Origin: Candidatus Gastranaerophilales bacterium
GTDB taxonomy: Bacteria; Cyanobacteriota; Vampirovibrionia; Gastranaerophilales; Gastranaerophilaceae
Direction: 5' to 3'
Assembly: GCA_944323535.1 (NCBI GenBank)
Contig: CALUSW010000008.1
Span: 1-46,922 of the forward strand
Length of the DNA: 46,922 bases
Shown here: piece by piece, positions 20,715-27,537 of the stretch
Numbering within the stretch: the stretch's first letter is position 1
Layout of the letters: every line of letters begins with the position of its first letter
The notes under the pieces: generated by a model
The model's input: only the letters and a program-made list of their open reading frames with translations
Database searches by the model: none
What the model was told of the DNA's origin: nothing
Program-made: the position numbers and the translations under genes

Positions 20715-23700
20715 TTAATTAACTTTGTAAAGAATTAAAGTGTTCAAGTCTTCAGGTTTAATTACAACAGGAAGCTCCTGACCTTTTGTATCTCTTCTTC
20801 TCAAGTAATAATAAGATTTTCCGTCTTTTTCCGATTTTGCAATTTCATAAACAGATGAATCTTCGCTTCTTGCATTTTTAAATTTACTGCCTATTGCAAG
20901 CCCATGTTTTAGACCCTGTTTAGCGTTCGCAATTTCCGGATTCAAAATAATTTTATTATATATACTTCCGGGTTCAGTACTTGTTTTCGTTTCCGTTCTA
21001 TTCATTTTTTTATTCAAAGGAACATCAGCACCGGTTATATCATGTAAAGTAAGAACTACGGAACCTTCATCATTATATCTGAGAATTGATTGCAGCTTTT
21101 CACTTGCCTTTGCTGCCGGTTTTCCCTGTGCATCTTTGCCTTCAACAGCTACAGGTATAGACACTGTTGAACCGTTATTTAAAGCACTTAGCTCAGGACG
21201 GGTTCTTAAATTTGCAATTTCATTCATTTTATCATAGAACTGTTTGACAAATTTATACTTATTATCATTATCATTATTCAACCATTCCCAGTGAATAACG
21301 TTTCTGTTTTGTTGATGATAATTCTTAGCCTTAGTTTCAAAACCCGTTACACCGGCTCTGTCTCCTGCAAAGTCAGTCGGACTTCCGGGCAGCGTAATAA
21401 GAAGCTTATATATTGAATAAAATCTGTCAAAAGCAGGAGTCAATATACTTTCAAGTAATTTGGCTTCAAGGCTGTCTCTGTTTTGGATTTTATTTCCGTT
21501 GTATTCCGCCTCATCAAATACGCTTTTTATTGCAATTTCAAAAGGTCTTGTTCCAAAAGCAGCCGCATCAAACTGTTTACCCTTATGAATACCTGAAGCT
21601 AAATTACTAATTGATTTTTTTAGAACTTGTTTTGTCTTTTCATCAGAAACTACAGAATCAACTGCATCATCAAGTCTTGACCCCATAGCAATTGCCATTG
21701 AACTTAATTTATCGAAATCTATGTTTTTTTCATCCTGCATCAAACATTTTGCAGCCGCCTTTTTATGCTCCTCTGACGAAAAATCCGAATTAAACAATCC
21801 CAGATCAAGCGAAAGACAATGAAGAACTCGCGGTTTATCATGGTTTCCAACAAATGTATAGGAACTATTAATACCATCTTCAGGGCTCTGGAATAGAAAT
21901 CCCGGATTTGTTTCAGACCAGCCTTCATCCAGTTTTTCCCGCAGATTGAAATTTTTACCTTCCTTCGACTGCCAGCTTGGAGCGTTGGATTCAAAACTAA
22001 AATTCGCAAACAATTCAGGCAGAAGAGAGAAGAAATAATTGTAATTTGCTACTGCGGTAATACCTGTAGCTTCAAGAAATTTTCTTTCCGCATCCGCATC
22101 ACTTGTAAATACAGTATGAGCATCGTCTTTAAATAAATCATATAAGTCTGTAATCTCTGCGGTTGTATACGCATGAGGATTAATTTCCAAAATATTTTGA
22201 TTATATTTTGTCCAAAAATCAATTACATTATTCCATGTTTGAGTCATACTATCCGCATCAGATCTTACAGAATCAATTGAAGCTATATCTTTTGCGGCAT
22301 CTATTCTCCAGCCCAAACCGGCTTCTGTTCTGTCCATTATCATTTCTGCAACTTTAAAATCATTTAAAGAACGGTATGAAAATCTATTTTTTATTCCCGA
22401 TTGAAGTCTTGATAAATCTGACTCTTGAAGTTGATAAATACCTTTTCTTAATATATTAACAACTATTTGTGCTTCTTCCTCTAATGTTTTACCGCTGTAT
22501 GGAATACCTAAAGACTGCATTGTAATTTCTTCGGGATTTACCGCAGAAAAATCAATATGACCGTCTTTTGTAATTTCAACGGGAGCCTCAGGAGCCAGTG
22601 CCTTTACAAATATATATTTAGTTAATTCAGGAGCAATTTCAGAAATAATATACTTGCCGTAATCAGTTACATTGCCTTCCTCTGAAACTCCCGGGATATC
22701 TTTAACCAAAGAATAAATAACAGGGACAATATCCTCCTGATAAAGTGTTTCCGTCTGATTATAAACATCAGAATATTTTTCAGGCAATTCAGGATTTCCG
22801 GCCTTATACAAGTCATATCTTGATACACCGATTTCATCATCGGAATTTGCTTTTTTTGCGATATAAGGAGATGTAATAATTCCGAGTAAATTTGTCGCAA
22901 ACGGCAGCGTTTCCAAAGGTACATCCATTGCCTGTCTTAAAATATAATCAGAAACAGTATACTCATTGCCCTTTATATATTCAGGATTTATCTCAGCACG
23001 CATATCCGCATCATCAAGACGTCTTAAATGATATTCATCATTCAAAACATTTTCTAATATTTCTTCATCAATATTATTTAACACGGATACAGGCAAATCA
23101 CCATTTTTCACAAGCTTATTTATTGTCTGCATATATTCTTCGGCATTTTGGGCAACTCCGCCTATTAAACCCGATACATATTCAAATTGTGTATCTGCGG
23201 TTAGTTTTGTCCAATATTTACCGGAATTTACCGCATAATCTCTTACAGCAAGCGCACCCCGGTCAAAATCTGCTATTGCTTCTTCTCTTTGATCGGAAGG
23301 TAATTTTGAAAATCTTGAATCATCTTTATCACATCTGTAGAAATTCAATTTAGCAATATCAACATTTCCGTCCCATACTTCAAGTCCGCCCGCTGCACTC
23401 TTATTTACAACATTAAAATTAGTAAAATCCGCAGCCCTTTTCATTGTTTCGATATCTGACAAATCAACAATTCCGTCATGAGCCGAAATATTTTTTATAT
23501 TTCTCTCCAATTCTACGGGATTTACTTCTACAGGGAAAGGATATACCGCATCATCATGTTTTGTAATATCATATATATTATCCGTATTTTTATTATCATA
23601 AGTCGACATTCTCATAGGAGAATCCGATTTTTTTTGCTCATCACTTGCCAGACGTTCATCATAGAATTGTATATATGTCGGTTTTGCCGGATTGTATTCA

Positions 23701-24677
23701 GGATTTTTAGAGTCATAACTTCCGTCTTCATCAATCACAAAAGGAGCATTAATAATCTTCATTCGTGTATAATCACATTTATCAGGAAGAATACCGAGAG
23801 ATATTTTGTCTTCTGCCCTGAACATATCTTTAGAAAAAGAATCAGCTCCTTTTCTTAAAAGCTCGGATAAATGAATGCCGCCAAACCCTTCATTTACAAG
23901 CGCAGCATCCGCAATCCAATTTATATCATGTTTAAATAATTCACGCTGCAGTGTTTTGAAATCTTCTTCAGTTCCCAAATCAGGAGCAACCTGATAAGCA
24001 TTTTCTGTCCAATATAAATGTGAAGAAATCGTATCTTTTGTAAAAGGTGTACCTACAATTCTTTTTACACCTTCTTTCTCTAACTCCGGCAATCTTTTTA
24101 TTATCCCGAAAAAATTACCGCCGAGTTTGTTGGCATGTGTTCTGACACTTGCAAGAGCTTTTGCTCTCAAACCTTCATTTATCTTTGGCTTCCCGCCGTT
24201 ATTTTTCACTCCCGGATAATATTCATCCGGCATTATTAACTGCATTGCACCGTTTTTATTAATAAGTGCACGATTATTTAATATAACATTATATTTATTA
24301 TCTGTTCTTTGGGTATCAAAAATACCTATTACAGTTCCGTTATCAAAAGCATATGAAGAATCCCGCGTATTTTTATCAGTCAATTTAAATCTGTATGCAA
24401 AGCCTTCAGATGAATTTAATTGCGGCAATTCCGACAAATCCGCACTGACAAACCCATCCTTCATAGGCAGAACAATTGCCGGTTTTTTTGAATCGGCTAT
24501 TGAAAGATTACCCTTTTTATCCTTCACAATATTATACAGTTCTACTTCACATTCATATTTTTTAGGATCATAAAGATAATAAAAATTATTTATCTCATAT
24601 CCCGTTTTATCTAATTTTTTATTATGTCCTGAAAATGAAACTTTTTGTGTGTTTAAATTACTTTTTTGAATATTCAC
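20715..24677 (-). CDS. Very large GH13 (alpha-amylase family)-like protein with a long insertion
   Basis: A 1320-residue protein. The alpha-amylase-family active-site segments are recognisable in order: region I-like WIADAALVNEGFGG (about 254-267), region II GLGWRIDAAKD (about 787-797) with the nucleophile Asp, region III TTAEITD (about 838-844) with the acid/base Glu, and region IV VGNHDKPR (about 942-949) with the third carboxylate. PGSPTDFAGDRAGVTGFE follows, as in branching-type enzymes. Regions I and II lie about 530 residues apart, against roughly 100 in usual members, so the barrel carries a huge insertion. There is no signal peptide, so it probably acts in the cytoplasm on an alpha-glucan. 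The N-terminus holds KVSFSG, a style seen in this lineage. It starts at GTG after a GGGAG site and is divergent from the next two genes. Family is likely; substrate unknown. Confidence 0.78.
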   Translation of the reverse strand: MNIQKSNLNTQKVSFSGHNKKLDKTGYEINNFYYLYDPKKYECEVELYNIVKDKKGNLSIADSKKPAIVLPMKDGFVSADLSELPQLNSSEGFAYRFKLTDKNTRDSSYAFDNGTVIGIFDTQRTDNKYNVILNNRALINKNGAMQLIMPDEYYPGVKNNGGKPKINEGLRAKALASVRTHANKLGGNFFGIIKRLPELEKEGVKRIVGTPFTKDTISSHLYWTENAYQVAPDLGTEEDFKTLQRELFKHDINWIADAALVNEGFGGIHLSELLRKGADSFSKDMFRAEDKISLGILPDKCDYTRMKIINAPFVIDEDGSYDSKNPEYNPAKPTYIQFYDERLASDEQKKSDSPMRMSTYDNKNTDNIYDITKHDDAVYPFPVEVNPVELERNIKNISAHDGIVDLSDIETMKRAADFTNFNVVNKSAAGGLEVWDGNVDIAKLNFYRCDKDDSRFSKLPSDQREEAIADFDRGALAVRDYAVNSGKYWTKLTADTQFEYVSGLIGGVAQNAEEYMQTINKLVKNGDLPVSVLNNIDEEILENVLNDEYHLRRLDDADMRAEINPEYIKGNEYTVSDYILRQAMDVPLETLPFATNLLGIITSPYIAKKANSDDEIGVSRYDLYKAGNPELPEKYSDVYNQTETLYQEDIVPVIYSLVKDIPGVSEEGNVTDYGKYIISEIAPELTKYIFVKALAPEAPVEITKDGHIDFSAVNPEEITMQSLGIPYSGKTLEEEAQIVVNILRKGIYQLQESDLSRLQSGIKNRFSYRSLNDFKVAEMIMDRTEAGLGWRIDAAKDIASIDSVRSDADSMTQTWNNVIDFWTKYNQNILEINPHAYTTAEITDLYDLFKDDAHTVFTSDADAERKFLEATGITAVANYNYFFSLLPELFANFSFESNAPSWQSKEGKNFNLREKLDEGWSETNPGFLFQSPEDGINSSYTFVGNHDKPRVLHCLSLDLGLFNSDFSSEEHKKAAAKCLMQDEKNIDFDKLSSMAIAMGSRLDDAVDSVVSDEKTKQVLKKSISNLASGIHKGKQFDAAAFGTRPFEIAIKSVFDEAEYNGNKIQNRDSLEAKLLESILTPAFDRFYSIYKLLITLPGSPTDFAGDRAGVTGFETKAKNYHQQNRNVIHWEWLNNDNDNKYKFVKQFYDKMNEIANLRTRPELSALNNGSTVSIPVAVEGKDAQGKPAAKASEKLQSILRYNDEGSVVLTLHDITGADVPLNKKMNRTETKTSTEPGSIYNKIILNPEIANAKQGLKHGLAIGSKFKNARSEDSSVYEIAKSEKDGKSYYYLRRRDTKGQELPVVIKPEDLNTLILYKVN

Positions 24678-24870: not shown

Positions 24871-25152
24871 ATGTCTAATATAATAAATTCCCCAAATATA
24901 AATAACACTAACCCGATACCGGCAAAAAATATTTCAGAAACTTCTGTTCCGGCAAGAAATATAGGTGTAGTAGAAGCCCCGCAGCAGCTTCCCAAATATT
25001 CTATTAATAAAGTTTTGCAGGAGAAAGATGAATTCAGAAAAAATGTCCTTTATTCAAATTATCAATCTGCAAAAAAGAAAAGCATTCTCCCAAAAATAGG
25101 AGTTATACTTGCTGCCGTTTTTGGATTTTTAATTCTTAAACGAAAAAAATAA
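24871..25152 (+). CDS. Small tail-anchored hypothetical protein (93 aa)
   Basis: The ATG at 24871 is chosen because GGAGG lies eight bases upstream; the frame is open further 5' but that part has no ribosome site. The 93-residue product has an Asn/Pro-rich N-terminus, a charged middle (LQEKDEFRKNVLYSNYQSAK) and a hydrophobic C-terminal segment (about 72-89) closed by KRKK. It therefore looks like a tail-anchored membrane protein. No family recognised. It precedes the PHP-like gene by 68 bases on the same strand and is divergent from the GH13-like gene. Confidence 0.65.
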   Translation: MSNIINSPNINNTNPIPAKNISETSVPARNIGVVEAPQQLPKYSINKVLQEKDEFRKNVLYSNYQSAKKKSILPKIGVILAAVFGFLILKRKK

Positions 25153-25220: not shown

Positions 25221-26657
25221 ATGAATATAAGTATTTCTCATAATTTCCCTTCCGGAATATCAACCGGTACCAACAAACAATTTACCCGTACTACAAGGGA
25301 GAAATCAGACTGCTGTGAGTTTTCTTCAAAACAAAAAACTCCGTCATTTAAAAAAAGTTTCTTTGCGTCTTTCTTTGCGCCGAAAAATGAAATTCCCAAA
25401 TATATAGACAACAATGCAAAACCGCCTTCAGATTTTGCAGTTGAAATTTCAAAAAATATTGAAAAAGTAGTAGAGAAAAAAATACCGGCTGAAAATTTTG
25501 CAAGTATTATGACTCCGGAAGAATTCAGAGAAATTCTCCCGTCATTAAAAGAAGAAAACTTTATTTCAAATAGAAAAAACAGAGATTCAGGAATATACTG
25601 TGCGGATCTTGATTATCAAAGCAACTTCTCAAACGGAACCCAAAATATATTCGACTTATTAGATGATGTTGCCGCATATGCGGATGAATACTACAAAAAA
25701 ACAGGCAAAAAATTTATATTTGCACTGGCAGACAGAGATTTACTTGAAGGCTTACAGCATGCTGTAAGAATTATAGGAAGCGATCCCGAAAAATTTAAAA
25801 ATGTTAAATTCCTTCCGGCATTCAAGATGTCCTTTGCCCATAAAGCACCTACATCAGGTTTAGGATATGAAAACAGTGAAATGATAATATACGGTGTAAA
25901 TCCTTTCTCGGAAAATTTGATTAACTTTGTAGAAAATACAATACAAAAAAGAAAAAAAATGACTGTCGAGTTTATAAAAAAAGTAAATCATCTTTATCCG
26001 GAATTTGCATACAGTATAATTGAGTTTGCACAACAAAACCAGCTAAAATATAAAAGAAGTTTTGCTGTATCCAATTTATACTGGAGAGCAAGAGAATATG
26101 CGGAAACAAAAGGTGATACAGCAATAAGGGGGAAAAAATTTATACCTGAAGATGTAATAGTTGAAGCGGAAAATATTCTAAACGAACTGGACGATATTTA
26201 TCTCGGCTCCGAAAATTCCGGGTTTTCTCCTTTGGGAACAACTATAATAAAGGACTCTGAAGTAAATAAAAATATAAAAGAAGTTTTTGAAGAATACTCT
26301 ACACATTTTGATGAATCGCAGGGCAGAGTAATTTCTGCAGCAGAAAACCTGTATGACGATATGATTGACTGTTTAAGTAAAGAACCGCAAAAACCAGTAC
26401 TGGCTTTATCTGCTCCATTCTACTTTTCACATTATTTTGAAGAATCAGGCTCCAAAACTTTTGAAAAAGTCGTAAAATTTATTAAAGAATTACAAGAAAA
26501 TTCTAACGGAATGCTTCTTGCATTTGAATCAGTTGTGCCTAAATATGATTTAGATTCAAATCTGACTCCGGATATTATTAAAAACTTCAATAATTATATG
26601 AGAAATAATACAGATCTTTATGAAGTCGGCGGAAGTTTTGCAAAACGCATGTTTTAG
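25221..26657 (+). CDS. PHP-domain-like protein with degenerate metal-binding motifs
   Basis: A 478-residue protein with no assigned close family. Residues 127-210 follow the PHP phosphoesterase pattern: YCADLDYQSNFSNGT (127-140) aligns with the DLHxHTxxSDG motif, FALADRDLLEGLQHA (167-181) with the aiTDHDxxxG motif, and VKFLPAFKMSF with the PGxE strand. The metal-binding His residues appear replaced (H to D and Q in the first motif, H to R in the second), so catalysis by the usual trinuclear site is doubtful. The first 75 residues are Ser/Lys-rich and probably disordered, without a signal peptide. The rest is helical, ending LYEVGGSFAKRMF. A TTGGAG site precedes the ATG. A pseudo-enzyme or a different metal site is possible. 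The alignment is by eye. Confidence 0.6.
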   Translation: MNISISHNFPSGISTGTNKQFTRTTREKSDCCEFSSKQKTPSFKKSFFASFFAPKNEIPKYIDNNAKPPSDFAVEISKNIEKVVEKKIPAENFASIMTPEEFREILPSLKEENFISNRKNRDSGIYCADLDYQSNFSNGTQNIFDLLDDVAAYADEYYKKTGKKFIFALADRDLLEGLQHAVRIIGSDPEKFKNVKFLPAFKMSFAHKAPTSGLGYENSEMIIYGVNPFSENLINFVENTIQKRKKMTVEFIKKVNHLYPEFAYSIIEFAQQNQLKYKRSFAVSNLYWRAREYAETKGDTAIRGKKFIPEDVIVEAENILNELDDIYLGSENSGFSPLGTTIIKDSEVNKNIKEVFEEYSTHFDESQGRVISAAENLYDDMIDCLSKEPQKPVLALSAPFYFSHYFEESGSKTFEKVVKFIKELQENSNGMLLAFESVVPKYDLDSNLTPDIIKNFNNYMRNNTDLYEVGGSFAKRMF

Positions 26658-26661
26658 CATT

Positions 26662-27537
26662 CTATTTTGCAAGATTATAAGTTAATACAACATCATTACC
26701 CTGCTCTGATATATATAAAACATCATTTTTTATATACAAGAAATATGGCTTTGAAACTTTTTCCATAAAAACACTGACACCGCCGCCTTTAGTTATTTTC
26801 AAAATATTATCGGATTCATAGTTAGCAACATATATATTATCATATTTATCAATAGCAAGCCCGACAGGTCCATCCAGTAAATAATCTTTAACAAAATTAG
26901 TTTTTTTCTTATTTTTATCCACTTTTATTATTGCATTATCAGAATATGAAGCAACAAACATATTTCCTTCAGAATCAACTGCCATGCCGGCTGGAGAATT
27001 AAATTTATCTATTAAAACTCTTTTATTTTTATCGGCTGTTGATATTTTGGATCTTGCCACTCTGTTTTTCTGCATATCGAATTGTTCTTTTGAATCCAGA
27101 TACAATTGTCTTGCAATTCCATACCCTGCATAATCATCAGGAATATATTCCAGATACTTCATCGCCAGAGAATAATTTTTTCTGTTGTATGAAATTTTTG
27201 CCGCCTGAAGTATTGCATCATAATCGGACGGATTAATTGCAATAACCTTGACATACGTGTTATATGCTTCATCATACTTTTTCTGAGCTATATATATTGA
27301 GGCAATATTATAATAAGCATCAGACATTTTGGGATTATACTCGATTGCTTTTTGAAAAGCAGCAATCGCACTGTCATATGCTTTAATTCTTGTAAATTCT
27401 ATTCCTTGTTTATACAAAGAAACTGCATATTGCATATCTTCTTCGGGAATTTCCATATCATCAGCATACGAAACAGAATTCACGAATGAAAATATCATAA
27501 GTATTTGTATTAATAACAAAAAGATTTTCTTTTTCAT
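26662..27537 (-). CDS. Secreted TPR-NHL repeat protein
   Basis: A 291-residue protein with a signal peptide (KIFLLLIQILMIFSFVNSVSYA). Residues about 40-160 hold TPR repeats (YDSAIAAFQKAIEYNPKMSD, then YDEAYNTYVKVIAINPSDYD). Residues about 180-290 hold NHL-type beta-propeller blades (FNSPAGMAVDSEGNMFVASY, then LDGPVGLAIDKYDNIYVANY). Only about three blades are present, so a closed propeller would need oligomers. TPR plus NHL implies protein binding in the periplasm. The ATG overlaps the gatA stop by one base (TAATG), so it is translationally coupled to gatA, although no functional link is obvious. Confidence 0.8.
   Translation of the reverse strand: MKKKIFLLLIQILMIFSFVNSVSYADDMEIPEEDMQYAVSLYKQGIEFTRIKAYDSAIAAFQKAIEYNPKMSDAYYNIASIYIAQKKYDEAYNTYVKVIAINPSDYDAILQAAKISYNRKNYSLAMKYLEYIPDDYAGYGIARQLYLDSKEQFDMQKNRVARSKISTADKNKRVLIDKFNSPAGMAVDSEGNMFVASYSDNAIIKVDKNKKKTNFVKDYLLDGPVGLAIDKYDNIYVANYESDNILKITKGGGVSVFMEKVSKPYFLYIKNDVLYISEQGNDVVLTYNLAK

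Follow-up and report, generated by a model that had tools for sequence, protein, structure and literature searches.

The gene at positions 25221 to 26657 of the window, i.e., the whole 46,922-nucleotide stretch of DNA analyzed here, is likely to encode a free-standing pseudoenzyme with the PHP fold that descended from a ligand-bearing ancestor, lost the whole metal center, and works without catalysis through the binding of a ligand or a partner. The pseudoenzyme status of the protein is highly probable, and it very probably has a new, noncatalytic job; that this job is a metal-free binding role, with either a phospho-ligand or a protein, is a proposition that could go either way. As judged from sequence and the predicted model, the case comprises the PHP fold, replacement of all nine active-site columns examined, purifying selection, fixed replacement residues, and the loss of a membrane helix.

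25221 to 26657, forward strand: PHP pseudo-phosphoesterase gene, 478 aa (open reading frame, profile match, model fold, and presence in 37/41 genomes of the genus).

The source genome (Candidatus Gastranaerophilales, an uncultured gut bacterium) is 96% complete in 121 contigs. The open reading frame starts with ATG, a short way after a Shine-Dalgarno-like GGAG; promoter and terminator scans gave a result no better than chance.

Relationship to the PHP superfamily

Searched as a single sequence against Pfam, NCBIfam, PDB, and PHROGs, the protein returned noise only: no PHP model was matched in Pfam (including PF02811) or NCBIfam, no PHP chain was matched in PDB, and no relative was found in the phages searched. 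These single-sequence negatives were not counted as refuting a PHP relationship. Whole-genome searches across the genus, family, and order gathered genus orthologs 40 to 67% identical to the window protein, together with many more distant relatives. Those from other genera bear DLHSHSxxSDG, TDHD, PGVE, FAHP (AHP), ESYHQAY, and GGxDNH, i.e., the PHP signature. The ligand-bearing relatives match PF02811 (one above the cutoff, the remainder weakly), the NCBIfam models for RNase RNM and nucleoside-bisphosphate phosphatase and, by profile search, PDB chains 9etk, 3e0f, 2yb1, and 7ug9.

Profile-profile alignment (hhalign) of the genus with the ligand-bearing relatives extended over 388 columns (probability, 100; E value, 2.8e-76). 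It placed DLDYQSNFSNGT (residues 129 to 140) exactly on DLHSHSNYSDGE, and ALADRDLLEG (residues 168 to 177) exactly on ALTDHDTVDG, of the ligand-bearing relatives. Since the motif stretches coincide, the likeness to PHP proteins is not due to chance. The by-eye placement of these two stretches on DLHxHTxxSDG and TDHDxxxG, on which the initial annotation had based its PHP assignment, is thereby confirmed. The bridge to the superfamily runs through the ligand-bearing relatives only, since a profile search of PDB that used just the genus alignment missed PHP proteins. When short canonical PHP proteins were compared instead (E value, 1.5e-17), some of the match fell ahead of the PHP core, so that this result was set aside.

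The AlphaFold2 model of the window protein, built from an alignment that took in ligand-bearing relatives, has a mean pLDDT of 82.7, with values of >90 over most of the core and low confidence at residues 1 to 53 (pLDDT < 50) and 325 to 341. Foldseek matched it to 9etk (E value, 2.5e-08) and 2yb1 (E value, 1.8e-06). PHP structures led the structural comparison (RNase AM 9etk, Z 16.5; 7ug9, Z 15.6; 2yb1, Z 15.2), followed by the PHP domains of DNA polymerase III (Z about 10.5 to 12) and, at Z 7 and below, by unrelated barrels. A ligand-bearing relative, when modeled, had the same structures at the top of its list, at Z values as high as 19. The predicted structure thus has the barrel fold of the PHP superfamily, as the initial annotation had anticipated.

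Loss and replacement of the metal ligands

Nine columns were scored, i.e., eight of the nine canonical ligand positions plus the active-site His of ESYHQ. The ligand-bearing relative L032 has H126, H128, D133, H167, E197, H382, H415, D446, and H448 at these columns; the window protein has D131, Q133, N138, R172, K202, A398, V439, F473, and K475, hence keeping none. By eye, even the ligand-bearing relatives of the subfamily lack the sixth canonical ligand, the His of HILG. The degenerate motifs are as follows.

25605 to 25640, forward strand: motif I, DLDYQSNFSNGT, residues 129 to 140; His, His, and Asp replaced by D131, Q133, and N138.
25722 to 25751, forward strand: motif II, ALADRDLLEG, residues 168 to 177; His replaced by R172.
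25815 to 25832, forward strand: motif III, PAFKMS, residues 199 to 204; bridging Glu replaced by K202.
26409 to 26417, forward strand: AHP motif, SAP, residues 397 to 399; His replaced by A398, P399 kept.
26628 to 26645, forward strand: GGxDxH motif, GGSFAK, residues 470 to 475; Asp and His replaced by F473 and K475.

The suspected replacement of His at the key sites therefore extends to every column tested, and with the His/Asp/Glu ligand motifs gone the protein is classed with the pseudoenzymes of PHP fold rather than with the PHP phosphoesterases.

An intact ortholog was found in 37 of the 41 genomes of the genus, with no stop codons in the matches, and each genus sequence keeps either none or one of the nine columns. 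As to whether relatives retain the His residues, those from other genera mostly do (all nine columns in 28 of 33 sister sequences, eight in one more), and the five outgroup sequences keep eight of nine. The ligand loss is the derived state because the outgroup carries the ligands. The genus clade is fully supported in the tree, its stem measuring 1.1 changes per column, and parsimony with six of the nine columns as the cutoff placed three changes: on the genus stem, in L049, and in the L038/L165 group. Four relatives from other genera of the same family, L033, L038, L049, and L165, are partly stripped (seven, five, three, and two of nine columns kept, respectively) and are further cases of PHP ligand loss, either independent or stepwise. 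For the L038/L165 group, the gradation from L033 through L038 to L165 suggests that the loss was stepwise. In one species, G017, the PHP gene alone is cleanly gone from between the small membrane-protein gene and the TPR gene (L189, 4788 to 6150), the GH13 gene remaining in place; its absence from G010, G019, and G033 was not scored as loss, as the GH13 gene there is at the edge of a contig or close to it.

Across the genus, the replacement residues are themselves conserved. D131 stands for the first His in 36/36 orthologs and K202 for the bridging Glu in 36 of 37 (Arg in L030), while the motif II His position is usually occupied by Arg. Near the former motifs, H180 is fixed for Glu and E292 for His, and both E468 and P440 are newly invariant. 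Pairwise dN/dS over the core was 0.035 to 0.13 (eight pairs), i.e., strong purifying selection. Conserved replacements and low dN/dS together indicate that function has been retained rather than being in decay, and lend support to the pseudoenzyme proposed in the initial annotation.

We infer a path in which a PHP phosphoesterase-like, ligand-bearing ancestor lost its entire metal center while the protein was kept across one genus. The charge of the metals would be taken over by cationic side chains, with K202 in place of the bridging Glu and R172 in place of the motif II His, and these would also hold the pocket together; the protein may then bind, without catalysis, either a partner protein or a ligand that is phosphorylated or anionic.

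The conserved lysine in the old active site, along with the charge reversals fixed at H180 and E292 and the new E468, could also mean that the barrel has gained another activity that needs no metal, in which K202 might, for instance, serve as a Schiff-base lysine or as a general acid/base. However, the Arg of the L030 ortholog is unfit as a Schiff-base lysine, no family was matched, and a structural ion pair is the simpler account of the swap (PMC3666897), so that we regard such an enzyme as improbable. It is very improbable that the protein is a divergent metalloenzyme holding its metal by new residues, for which an acidic cluster plus H207 would be the candidates. Within the genus, D129, D131, D171, D173, and E436 vary little or not at all, E468 has become invariant, and H207 is at least 90% conserved; however, the ligand-bearing relatives conserve D129, D171, D173, and E436 just as well, although these are not among their canonical ligands, and every tested ligand position is gone, two of them having turned cationic. 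A decaying relic without function is scarcely credible: the clean loss in G017, an ortholog identity below that of housekeeping neighbors (about 80 to 87%), and the repeated ligand loss in the family would fit it, but the frames are open in all 37 carrying genomes, the core is under the constraint given above, dozens of columns including the replaced sites are conserved, and the locus order is maintained.

Locus context and the N-terminal tail

The PHP pseudoenzyme gene is flanked by the following features.

20715 to 24677, reverse strand: divergent neighbor encoding a GH13-like (alpha-amylase clan) protein, 1,320 aa (Pfam PF00128, E value 2.5e-16).
24871 to 25152, forward strand: small membrane-protein gene, about 93 aa with a C-terminal hydrophobic helix (open reading frame, with same-place homologs in part of the genus).
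25221 to 25415, forward strand: N-terminal tail of the PHP pseudoenzyme, residues 1 to 65, mostly of low confidence in the model and lacking a membrane helix (pLDDT, hydropathy, and motif count).
26662 to 27537, reverse strand: conserved downstream neighbor encoding a protein with TPR and NHL-type beta-propeller repeats and a signal-like N terminus (locus comparison).

The frame of the small membrane protein is listed from 24781, with a likely start (MSNII) at 24871; the gene lies between the GH13 and PHP genes, just upstream of the latter and codirectional with it. The gene order, including neighbors that we take to be cysS, gatA, and ruvB from their sequences, is cysS, GH13 (reverse), small membrane protein (forward), PHP pseudoenzyme (forward), TPR/NHL (reverse), gatA (reverse), and ruvB (forward). 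Most of the genus shares this order from cysS to ruvB, which other genera lack.

The glycosidase-like gene remarked on alongside the PHP gene is thus indeed a GH13-like one. Its product has the catalytic-type motifs GWRIDAAKD, TAEIT, and GNHDK intact, and a VSFSG tail at the N terminus. Because these motifs look intact in the window and most relatives, the GH13 enzyme is probably active. GH13 is found in 41/41 genomes of the genus and is widespread in other genera, and it adjoins the PHP gene in 33 of the 35 genus genomes whose contigs permit a judgment (exceptions, G014 and G022). The ligand-bearing PHP genes of other genera do not adjoin GH13 in the flanks examined. An obligate link between the two genes was rejected, since GH13 occurs without the PHP gene in G017 and in other genera.

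Most ligand-bearing relatives have a hydrophobic helix ahead of the conserved region, and the genus clade does not: its maximum 17-residue hydropathy has a median of 0.42, the sole value of >1.6 coming from an overextended start. By this measure, the N-terminal membrane helix is lost in the genus clade. Many genus orthologs instead bear an SFxG motif in the tail, often preceded by D-x-F. A split anchor is conceivable, given that a 93-aa membrane protein sits beside a PHP clade that lost its own membrane helix.

Tails of the [VI]SF[STGK]G type, often with D-x-F before, are common to unrelated Gastranaerophilales proteins, having been seen in the GH13-like (20715 to 24677) and PHP (25221 to 26657) proteins of the window and at L167 11204 to 12448 and L166 4119 to 5903. 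Among 564 long open reading frames the pattern occurred 34 times in residues 6 to 65, compared with 4 times in one control stretch and once in another; the matches sit in few families (GH13, the PHP pseudoenzyme, and two unknown ones). The tail resembles a targeting or sorting signal not described before.

In another genus, the gene that comes after the ligand-bearing PHP gene encodes a 414- to 417-aa protein with an SFTG-type tail (L167, 11204 to 12448; L173, 11207 to 12460), which has no significant Pfam match. The possibility that the 414-aa frame of L167 is a second copy of PHP was tested and dismissed.

The adjacency of GH13 and the similar N-terminal tails weakly suggest that the role of the PHP pseudoenzyme is tied to the GH13 enzyme or its location, and we place such a functional tie below the binding role. 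A more specific version, in which the Lys/Arg/Asp network of the barrel would form a metal-free phospho-sugar or nucleotide sensor that controls or positions GH13, or else K202 would serve a new enzyme, appears unlikely.

Known PHP proteins and significance

In C-family DNA polymerases, three metals are held by nine PHP residues, and ligand-less PHP domains have been documented within these replicative enzymes, with Arg or Lys in place of the metals in DNA polymerase III; a Lys-for-Glu swap in xylose isomerase has been cited as a parallel (PMC3666897). By analogy, this cation-for-metal logic would fit R172 and K202. The closest likeness is to the variant PHP domain of the Escherichia coli DNA polymerase III alpha subunit (DnaE; 2hnh, 4jom; PMC3666897), in which the fold is kept, the ligands are lost, Arg stands in for a metal, and the domain is retained for a noncatalytic role (stability and probably contact with the epsilon subunit). 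The window protein shares the ligand-less state, with R172 and K202 as conserved replacements in the genus. However, the DnaE PHP forms a single domain within a polymerase and has changes at five of the nine ligand positions, whereas the window protein is a free-standing 478-aa frame, not part of a C-family DNA polymerase, with all tested positions changed.

The closest solved folds (Z 15 to 16.5) are RNase AM/RNase RNM (YciV; 9etk, 7ug9) and the nucleoside-bisphosphate phosphatase of Chromobacterium violaceum (2yb1). All are metal dependent, RNase AM/RNase RNM being an exoribonuclease with the PHP ligand set, whereas the window protein lacks the tested ligands of that set, leaves the NCBIfam RNase RNM model unmatched, is about 13 to 14% identical over the aligned fold, and has an extra helical region before the PHP core. 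The long PHP proteins found in other genera of Gastranaerophilales (L032, L048, L076, and others) match the window protein in length and in domain plan, down to the conserved helical region that precedes motif I, and are about 23 to 31% identical to it over the full alignment; unlike it, they keep the ligands and mostly have the N-terminal hydrophobic helix. They are unnamed in every library searched.

The same genome encodes two further PHP proteins, one canonical (280 aa) and one of 213 aa, as well as a long frame of 1,158 aa that bears PHP. The latter is its best PHP match, is distinct from the 478-aa gene, and is taken as DnaE by its size and score. PHP chemistry is therefore still present in the cell.

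A search of the open-license literature on PHP pseudoenzymes and inactive PHP proteins found no free-standing one. Our data point to a clade of about 37 species in which the PHP metal center has been replaced by conserved residues in a free-standing protein. Because ligand-bearing and partly stripped relatives exist beside this clade, they provide a series in which the change from a metalloenzyme to what may be a binding protein can be studied.
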